From assembly GCF_023101165.1 (NCBI RefSeq), contig NZ_CP078076.1:2976001-3040000 (forward strand): a DNA stretch of 64,000 bases, written 5' to 3'. This DNA comes from Microbacterium sufflavum (GTDB lineage: Bacteria > Actinomycetota > Actinomycetes > Actinomycetales > Microbacteriaceae). This document shows positions 2,077 to 3,771 of this stretch, one piece after another. Both the position numbers and the translations under genes were made by a program. How positions within the stretch are numbered: the stretch's first letter is position 1; each line of letters opens with the position of its first letter. The notes beneath the pieces were generated by a model. That model saw only the letters and a program-made list of their open reading frames with translations, did no database searches and had not been told where the DNA came from.

Positions 2077-3264
2077 TCACTCCGACAGCGGCTGCTTCGG
2101 CAGGCGCCGCACCTTCGCCCGGCGACGACGACGCTCCGGGATCATCGAGCGCATCTCTTCGAGCTTGCCGAAGCAGAACAACCGGTCGTCCGCCTCCAGC
2201 ACGACGTGCTTGCGCGGGTTCGGGATCACGCTCACCCCGCGGTGCAGCGTGAGCACGGTGATGTCACGCTCCCACAGTCCGGCGTCACCCAGGGTCTTCC
2301 CCACCAGGTCGGCGGCGCCGTGCACCATCAGCTCCGCCACGCCGTACCCCGTCGACACCGTCAGACGCTGTCGCACGTCGATCTCGGGGAACGCCACCTG
2401 CCCGGCGATGTAGTCGATGATGGCGCCGGCGACGTCGAGCTTCGTGGCCGTCTCGATGCCCTGCAGTCCCGGCGAGGAGTTCACCTCCATGACGAGCGGT
2501 CCCTCGTCGCCCTCGAGCATGTCCACTCCCGCCACCCGCAGCCCCATGATCTGCGCCGAACGGACGGCCGCCCGCTCGTACACCGGGTCGAGCTCGATCG
2601 CCTCCACCGATCCGCCGCGGTGCACGTTCGAGCGGAACTCGTCGCCGGCCGCCGAGCGCCGCATCGCCGCGACGACGCGGTCGCCCACGACCAGCGCACG
2701 GATGTCGCGCCCACGACTCTCGGAGATGAACTTCTGGATCAGCACGTTCTGCTTCGTGGAGTGCAGGGTCTCGATGATCGCCTCGGCGACCTTGACCTGT
2801 GGGGCGAGGATCACGCCGATCCCCTGCGTGCCTTCGAGCAGCTTGATCACGACGGGGGCACCGCCGACGCGCTCGATCGCCGGGCGCACATCGGCGCGGT
2901 TGCGCACGAAAGCGGTGGGCGGCATCGCGATGTTGTGCCGGGAGAGGATCTGGTTGGCGCGGAGCTTGTCGCGCGCGCTCGAGATGCCGTTGGCGGTGTT
3001 CGGGGTGTACACGTCCATCTGCTCGAACTGGCGGACCACCGCCGTACCGAAGTAGGTGATCGAGTTCCCGATGCGCGGCAGGATCGCGTCGTAGTCGCTC
3101 AGCTGGCGTCCCCGGTAGTGCAGGTCGGGTTCATCGGAGGTGAGGTCGATCGCGAAGCGAAGGGTGTTCAGCACCTTGACGTTGTGCCCCCGCTGCAGCG
3201 CGGCGGCCCGGAGGCGCTGGGTGGAGTACGCCTGCGGCGCACGGGACAGCACTGCGATCTTCAC
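2077..3264 (-). CDS. rimK: RimK-family ATP-grasp ligase with C-terminal RCK_C/TrkA-C-like domain
   Basis: A 395-residue protein. Residues 1-295 are an ATP-grasp ligase of the RimK/LysX type: the N-terminal KIAVLSRAPQAYSTQRL, the ATP-binding VVIKLLEGTQGIGV and the metal-binding VMEVNSSPGLQGIE are visible. Such enzymes add glutamate to protein C-termini or build poly-glutamate with ATP. Residues about 318-371 (GKTLGDAGLWERDITVLTL, then DDRLFCFGKLEEM) look like the RCK_C ligand-binding domain of potassium-transport regulators, which E. coli RimK (about 300 residues) lacks. The GTG at 3264 is chosen because AGGA lies 7 nt upstream. The gene is divergent from the protease gene, with 27 bp between starts. 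The modified target is unknown. Confidence 0.88.
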   Translation of the reverse strand: MKIAVLSRAPQAYSTQRLRAAALQRGHNVKVLNTLRFAIDLTSDEPDLHYRGRQLSDYDAILPRIGNSITYFGTAVVRQFEQMDVYTPNTANGISSARDKLRANQILSRHNIAMPPTAFVRNRADVRPAIERVGGAPVVIKLLEGTQGIGVILAPQVKVAEAIIETLHSTKQNVLIQKFISESRGRDIRALVVGDRVVAAMRRSAAGDEFRSNVHRGGSVEAIELDPVYERAAVRSAQIMGLRVAGVDMLEGDEGPLVMEVNSSPGLQGIETATKLDVAGAIIDYIAGQVAFPEIDVRQRLTVSTGYGVAELMVHGAADLVGKTLGDAGLWERDITVLTLHRGVSVIPNPRKHVVLEADDRLFCFGKLEEMRSMIPERRRRRAKVRRLPKQPLSE

Positions 3265-3291
3265 GGGGGATTTCCTGCCAGGATGTATCAG

Positions 3292-3771
3292 GTGAGTAGG
3301 TCTACCCATTCAAACACCCTCACGGGGTGGCGAGAGTGGGTCAGCCTGCCCGATCTCGGCGTCGACTGGATCAAGGCGAAGATCGACACCGGCGCGCGCA
3401 CCTCATCGCTGCACGCGTTCGACGTGCACGAGTTCGAGCGCGAGGGCGAGGCGTGGGTCCGCTTCCGAGTGAACCCGTGGCAGGACAGCCAGGACGACGC
3501 GGTCGTCGTCGAGTGCCCTGTGCACGATCGCCGCGCCGTGCGCAGCTCGTCCGGGCACGCGCAGGAGCGTCTGGTGGTGCAACTGATCATCCGCCTGGTC
3601 GACCGCGAGGTGCTGGCCGAGGTCACCCTCAGCAACCGGGACGAGATGGGGTTCCGCATGCTCATCGGTCGCGAGGCCCTGCGTCACGGCTACGTCGTGG
3701 ACCCCGCGCGCTCGTTCCTCGGTGGAAGGGCACCGCGCGAGGCACGCCGCCGCAACCGGGGACGCGCCTGA
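3292..3771 (+). CDS. Retropepsin-like protease of the RimB / ATP-dependent zinc protease family (COG4067-type)
   Basis: A 159-residue protein with WVSLPDLGVDWIKAKIDTGAR. D32-T-G-A-R is the aspartic-protease-like core of this family, and the partner hydrophobic-hydrophobic-G motif appears as MLIGREAL near residue 125. Family members often sit beside rimK, and in pseudomonads RimB acts with RimK; a role in trimming or controlling glutamylation here is inference. The GTG at 3292 is preferred because AGGA (3280-3283) is 8 nt upstream; ATG 3283 in the same frame lacks such a site. The last 20 residues are strongly basic. Confidence 0.85.
   Translation: MSRSTHSNTLTGWREWVSLPDLGVDWIKAKIDTGARTSSLHAFDVHEFEREGEAWVRFRVNPWQDSQDDAVVVECPVHDRRAVRSSSGHAQERLVVQLIIRLVDREVLAEVTLSNRDEMGFRMLIGREALRHGYVVDPARSFLGGRAPREARRRNRGRA

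Follow-up and report, generated by a model that had tools for sequence, protein, structure and literature searches.

A RimK-type ligase carrying an RCK_C domain, its divergent RimB-like partner and a predicted DUF3027 target in Microbacterium

A divergent ligase and protease

Within a 64,000-nucleotide stretch of DNA from the soil bacterium Microbacterium sufflavum (the window; G000:C1:2976001-3040000 of a one-contig, 3.57-Mb genome), two genes stand back to back. One, on the reverse strand at 2077..3264, encodes a rimK-family alpha-L-glutamate ligase of 395 amino acids with a C-terminal RCK_C domain; it starts with GTG at 3264 and its stop codon ends at 2077. The other, on the forward strand at 3292..3771, encodes a RimB-like retropepsin (PF05618) whose stop codon ends at 3771. 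The named nearest relatives are mostly Microbacterium; in our genome set we took family code f1 to be Microbacteriaceae and genus code g1 to be Microbacterium. A first-pass annotation, made from the letters alone, had read the pair as a reversible switch for modifying protein tails and had called its substrate unknown. Here we report that in Microbacterium the presence of rimK is coupled to the C-terminal residue of another protein, DUF3027, which may be the target.

Both genes offer a choice of start codon. For rimK, starting at the in-frame ATG 3309 would lengthen the protein to 410 amino acids; we prefer GTG 3264 because the Rimk_N profile starts at its residue 1. For the protease, conservation favours GTG 3292 over the alternative ATG 3283, and the choice decides whether 27 bp (3265..3291) or 18 bp separate the divergent start codons. 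With the conservation-favoured start, the 27-bp spacing originally read from the sequence is right. In 76 of 80 relatives the two start codons can be placed 24-30 bp apart, and the protease start in those 76 loci is usually GTG. Such spacing implies that the promoters probably lie inside the partner gene or are shared.

The ligase opens with a Rimk_N pre-ATP-grasp domain (residues 1-94, 2983..3264, reverse strand; Pfam PF18030, 7.6e-37), followed by a RimK ATP-grasp domain (residues 97-286, 2407..2976, reverse strand; PF08443, 4.2e-57). In an alignment, E. coli RimK has the same residues at D248, E260 and N262 of the latter domain, which we take to be metal ligands. The protein passes the RimK family model TIGR00768 (245.5 bits against a curated cut-off of 143.4); its best NCBIfam match, the S6--L-glutamate ligase equivalog NF007764, stays below cut-off at 324.4 against 331 bits. 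The partner passes the PF05618 profile (1.4e-39, 135.6 bits against a cut-off of 27), with its fold starting about 11 residues past the favoured start, and carries a DTGA active-site motif (3385..3396, forward strand, Asp codon 3385-3387) equivalent to the DTG motif described in PMC11957791. Profile and motif uphold the initial call of a retropepsin-like protease of RimB type beside rimK. The RimB equivalog NF052261 is the best of four related models, at 122.9 bits against a cut-off of 200, and the protein scores higher as RimB than as RloA (71.8-88.8 bits). We write 'RimK-family ligase' and 'RimB-like protease' because both proteins fall below the strictest equivalog cut-offs. The ATP-grasp region is conserved with E. 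coli. ATP-dependent joining of glutamate is predicted for the ligase, and trimming of poly-glutamate from protein C-termini for the protease.

How widespread is this arrangement? A survey of the class (394 genomes, match threshold 1e-20) returned 49 genomes with a match: 29 with a full-span ligase bearing the tail, spread over nine genera and four families; one with a tail-less, classical RimK (G410); and 19 with partial matches to the ATP-grasp part. When the neighbours of rimK were surveyed, as the first-pass annotation had proposed, the protease lay divergent beside the tailed rimK in all 80 named loci, which include Microbacterium, Agromyces, Leucobacter, Leifsonia, Terrabacter and Nocardioides. 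The same divergent pairing recurs in 52/52 loci of further genome searches and in 12/12 additional stretches, these three sets partly sharing genomes. The flanks vary, with DUF4191, RDD and glnA solely in the main Microbacterium group, and we rejected the glnA neighbourhood as a general functional clue. Since the protease and the tailed rimK are always paired while the flanking genes vary, we treat them as a two-gene module. For the proposed reversible switch, the pairing is as expected in every locus read; the two activities are predicted from sequence.

Fusions of RimK to RCK_C in other phyla were sought in a plasmid collection only, the chromosomes of those phyla lying outside the search. 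Among 109 records with a RimK-like match, one, from Leisingera, covers at least 80% of the query. We rejected it as an RCK_C fusion: the match, to residue 335, overruns the annotated 906-base RimK gene, and the annotated gene is tail-less.

S6 and DUF3027 as candidate substrates

Which protein would such a module modify? In the cited papers the RimK protein target described is ribosomal protein S6, and it was our first candidate. We rejected it on its C-terminus. The S6 of the same organism has no acidic acceptor end but terminates in RKAAKAAKA, whereas that of E. coli, our control, ends AGDSEE. None of 20 rimK-bearing genomes (our own and 19 others, including G120) has an S6 ending in Glu, and the last S6 residues are identical in G045, which has rimK, and G019, which lacks it. 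In Pseudomonas, replacing the penultimate Asp of RpsF with Lys is reported to block glutamylation (PMC4741518), so an acidic end is required there. One could still argue that S6 is the protein that the module glutamylates, just as E. coli and Pseudomonas do, and that RCK_C merely brings extra regulation: the ligase is 48% identical to E. coli RimK, its best NCBIfam match is the S6 ligase model, and it has a RimB-like partner as in Pseudomonas. Against the AKA end, the count of 0/20 and the likeness of tails with and without rimK, we regard this account as very unlikely. S6 is unlikely to be the RimK substrate here, and the mass-spectrometric test of S6 suggested at the outset would probably be negative.

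A different candidate came from scanning our own genome for runs of three Glu codons directly followed by a stop. The scan gave five matches against nine for a control pattern, so that -EEE ends are not generally enriched, and a true stop follows in three of the five: DUF3027, an apparent exported solute-binding protein (judged by eye) and a 47-amino-acid open frame. DUF3027 is an actinobacterial signature protein (SCO4330/ML2142; PMC4255298). In our genome it lies on the reverse strand from about 25,332 of G000:C1 and ends AGEVDEEE behind a long acidic tail.

The end of DUF3027 tracks rimK. Among the 24 Microbacterium genomes compared first, DUF3027 ends in Glu in 9/10 with rimK and 2/14 without. 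We extended the set to 149 genomes (59 with rimK), of which 147 have DUF3027, the first 24 included; the two left out, G039 and G517, carry rimK, gave no DUF3027 match and are 44% and 79% complete. Here the last residue is Glu in 52/57 genomes with rimK against 5/90 without, and the last two residues are both Glu in 44/57 against 2/90. Excluding genomes less than 90% complete leaves a Glu end in 49/54 and 5/82.

The difference lies in the last three residues, mainly the last. The remaining tail has a similar Glu content whether rimK is present (0.189) or absent (0.176), and at position -4 Glu is in fact rarer with rimK (1/57 against 18/90). From tail composition one would expect 10.8 Glu ends with rimK and 15.8 without; the observed numbers are 52 and 5. 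Neighbouring genes served as controls: a cold-shock gene (CspA, its domain confirmed by Pfam) lies beside DUF3027 on the same strand in 147/147 genomes, and none of the CspA (0/57 and 0/90) or SerC (0/55 and 0/65) proteins, with and without rimK respectively, ends in Glu. Without rimK, DUF3027 ends in RSY, REY, ER, D and the like. Many of these acidic tails are capped by RSY, REY or ER, as though Glu were disfavoured at the end (5 against 15.8 expected).

Shared ancestry could produce such a pattern. Most of the rimK-bearing genomes (49/57) form one supported group on a tree of 147 rows, built by a quick search on SerC, the cold-shock protein and the N-domain of DUF3027, the tail being excluded; 44 of its 144 inner branches are weak and several rows are under half filled. 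On this tree rimK status changes nine times. In eight independent pairs, the Glu end follows rimK in 5.9 on average and opposes it in none (median p 0.031, range 0.016-0.25). A model of correlated evolution that lets the Glu end depend on rimK fits better than independence (likelihood ratio 30.7, p 2.2e-7), as does a fully dependent two-trait model (p 1.9e-6); the estimated rate of gain of the Glu end is 9.7 with RimK against 0.5 without, and that of loss 0 against 10.2.

Eight rimK-bearing rows stand isolated on the tree. They have the pair but no DUF4191, RDD or glnA within the 13 kb read, unlike four main-group genomes, which keep that site; we infer that these rows are separate acquisitions. 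Six of them end in Glu (G472, G498, G468, G507, G045 and G011) and two do not (G503 and G013). Against reading the coupling of rimK and DUF3027 as a by-product of common descent, or of a gene travelling with rimK, stand its recurrence in six of the eight isolated lineages, where the pair lies outside the DUF4191/RDD/glnA setting, and the lack of any independent pair that opposes it. Despite the one large group, we consider this explanation rather improbable.

A separate observation concerns G042 (G042:C10:2957-4119; L025, L026, L343), where rimK appears as two matches with a gap between them and DUF3027 still ends EEE. The split gene may reflect recent decay or an assembly error.

The RCK_C tail and the proposed mechanism

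The domain search that had been suggested for the end of the ligase finds RCK_C (TrkA_C, PF02080) at residues 318-373 by Pfam bounds (2146..2313, reverse strand; 1.1e-8, 35.3 bits against a cut-off of 27), the sole above-cut-off TrkA_C match in our genome. A full-length RimK model was poor, with a predicted local distance difference test score (pLDDT) of 46.6, and was not used; the tail was modelled alone as a 111-residue construct built from 30 relatives. Block-mean pLDDT is 77-94 across construct residues 21-90, and the modelled fold begins upstream of the Pfam bounds, at about residue 305. It matches 2bko (Z 12.0; 1.5 Å over 72 residues), MthK (11.9), KtrA with cyclic di-AMP (c-di-AMP; 11.2) and KhtT (11.1), while sequence matches to solved RCK_C chains are weak (best E 0.0035). 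With a fold score of Z 12, the RCK_C/TrkA-C segment first noticed from the sequence is thus confirmed. It is kept across genera, at a mean column identity of 84% over 30 rows, and was not found on the ordinary RimK proteins examined (E. coli, G410 and the plasmid matches). Behind it lies a basic tail, residues 376-389 by alignment (PERRRRRAKVRRLP; 2098..2139, reverse strand). In a survey of 131 loci, some genomes being repeated and one locus giving no tail, the 12 residues past an M(I/V)P motif carry a net charge of +6 to +8 in 130/130 tails.

What might this domain sense? The nearest solved structures, by fold and by those weak sequence matches, include KtrA, BusR and KhtT, and RCK_C could accordingly serve as a receptor for c-di-AMP, linking glutamylation with osmotic signalling. 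A diadenylate cyclase (DAC) domain is present in 14/14 rimK-bearing genomes of other families. It is, however, absent from our own genome and from 16/16 further rimK-bearing genomes of the same family, where the tail is nonetheless conserved; c-di-AMP signalling may have been lost in this family (cyclase domain in 0/17 rimK-bearing genomes). A non-DAC source is conceivable, as a Streptomyces venezuelae disA mutant is reported to retain residual c-di-AMP (PMC10117811). The same paper gives a signature for RCK_C domains that bind the nucleotide, (I/L)(I/L)X2DX1RX5N(I/L)(I/L), and none of 130 RimK tails carries it in strict or relaxed form. Of the controls, S. aureus KtrA fits the strict form, whereas KhtT fits the relaxed one alone; because KhtT is a known binder that fails the strict form, the signature alone does not exclude binding. 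Taken together, c-di-AMP is unlikely as the general RCK_C ligand, and a role as osmotic receptor for it here strikes us as most improbable.

Alternatively, RCK_C and the basic tail may sense nothing and form an inert or purely structural, dimerising extension. The RCK_C domain of BusR is reported to be dimeric in solution without ligand (PMC8517857), and no ligand-site signature is recognisable in the tails. The strong conservation of the tail counts against this, yet a structural role would fit it too. We consider an inert or structural tail doubtful, though a serious contender.

The reading that we prefer combines these elements, and the balance of evidence leans modestly towards it: a RimK/RimB-like glutamylation switch joined to RCK_C, with a ligand that is probably not c-di-AMP, whose target in Microbacterium is the DUF3027 tail and not S6. 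The ligase would extend a protein C-terminus with glutamates, which the retropepsin would trim, making a reversible tailing module. Its main target in Microbacterium would be the acidic DUF3027 tail, whose -EEE end is much like the -EE of E. coli S6. RCK_C would be an added regulatory or oligomerising unit, which probably adjusts the ligase in response to some ligand other than c-di-AMP. Behind it, the basic tail probably helps to dock a polyacidic substrate. A broader version, which we hold only tentatively, treats the RimK-RCK_C sensor and the protease as a mobile module that writes and erases Glu tails on DUF3027 in response to a non-c-di-AMP signal, the host end adapting after each acquisition; this would be protein-tail modification under sensor control, with a target outside the ribosome. 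In place of the 'unknown substrate' of the first-pass annotation we can thus name a specific predicted one, the C-terminus of DUF3027.

Several points weigh against this proposal. DUF3027 emerged from a scan of one genome with a pattern that was not enriched over its control. Both enzymes lie under their equivalog cut-offs, at 324.4/331 bits for S6 ligase and 122.9/200 for RimB, and RCK_C could be purely structural. There are exceptions to the coupling in both directions: among rimK-bearing genomes, the isolated G503 (DED) and G013 (RGR) and the main-clade G004, G501 and G481 have no Glu end, and five genomes without rimK have one. Under the two-Glu criterion the independent pairs do not reach significance (3.7 for, 0 against, median p 0.125), and tests of correlated evolution may exaggerate if a single large group prevails, as it does in this tree. 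In the genomes read beyond the genus the pattern fails. In G168, of the same family but another genus, DUF3027 ends SGD; in rimK-bearing genomes of other families a Glu end occurs in 0/5, four of these having no long acidic tail and the fifth, G059, an Ala/Pro/Glu-rich tail ending TPTD. Because of these lineages we limit the claim to Microbacterium; elsewhere RimK must have another target or make free poly-glutamate.

Could free poly-glutamate be the product throughout? RimK enzymes are reported to need no protein acceptor for producing poly-alpha-glutamate (PMC4741518), and RimB to stimulate that synthesis (PMC11957791). The ligase might then make an osmolyte or counter-ion that the protease trims, with RCK_C, a domain typical of K+ transport regulators, responding to a turgor-related ion or nucleotide; in the main Microbacterium group, glnA is a close neighbour. 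Neither the other genera nor the eight isolated lineages show that linkage, and this account leaves the tracking of rimK by the DUF3027 C-terminus unexplained. We judge it unlikely.

If the preferred reading, a switch acting on DUF3027, is true, RimK would have a second, lineage-specific target, recognised through its evolutionary footprint, and glutamate tailing would be a reusable modification, here applied to a non-ribosomal protein. It would also offer a first entry point to DUF3027, a signature protein of actinobacteria that is so far uncharacterised. RCK_C would gain a new output, an enzyme rather than a transporter or repressor.

One further feature of the locus is a conserved DNA box, GGTGTTTGAATG (3307..3318, reverse strand), about 50 bases upstream of the rimK start. 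Its opposite strand reads as the His-Ser-Asn-Thr codons of the protease (residues 6-9 from GTG 3292), and in relatives L027-L106 the consensus GTGYTTGAAT sits at the same distance ahead of rimK, within the first protease codons. The Ser codon of the box is the rare TCA in 72/72 readable loci (of 80); elsewhere in the rimK and protease genes TCA makes up 65 of 2,172 Ser codons. The box is absent from most loci of family f45. With a single exact copy in our genome, it was rejected as a regulon site; it may be part of a promoter or a regulator site.

Comparison with known systems

The RimB/RimK pair is reported to occur scattered over bacteria; of 2,226 accessions with rim genes, 44% have rimB and rimK as two separate ones (PMC11957791). 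In the literature searched, we found no RCK_C/TrkA-C domain joined to RimK or to another ATP-grasp ligase. Likewise, a search for RimK and Microbacterium brought up nothing that evidently bears on the locus; one paper concerns an E. coli RimK mutation in a Cs+-resistant strain.

The closest relatives in design are the RimABK and RimBK systems of Pseudomonas and Desulfotalea (PMC11957791, PMC7343187), which likewise combine RimK with a retropepsin-like poly-glutamate protease; RimB is reported to remove the glutamates that RimK adds, and a RimBK fusion exists (PMC11957791). As described there, rimABK is co-transcribed or RimBK fused, the target is an acidic-ended S6, and regulation runs through c-di-GMP and RimA. 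The module described here is instead divergent, with RCK_C and a basic tail on the ligase, a non-acidic S6 end and DUF3027 as the predicted target. RloABC of Pseudomonas aeruginosa also unites a PF05618-type retropepsin, an ATP-grasp protein and poly-glutamate cleavage; it differs in that RloA carries a signal peptide and is accompanied by an inactive transglutaminase (PMC12239564).

E. coli RimK shares the pre-ATP-grasp and ATP-grasp region, aligned at 48% identity, but is 300 amino acids long and ends near the point at which the RCK_C linker of our ligase begins; unlike the present gene, it has no protease among its annotated neighbours. Within the actinomycetes, G410 (L136) also pairs a RimB-like protease with RimK. 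There the genes lie on the same strand and RimK has no RCK_C tail; rimB and rimK are followed by an open frame that resembles, by eye, a relative of aspartoacylase/desuccinylase, making this a second, separate type. The RCK_C domains of KtrA/KtrC, KhtT, BusR and MthK share the fold of the tail (Z about 10-12) and act on K+ transport or transcription, whereas the RCK_C domain described here is carried by a RimK-family ligase.

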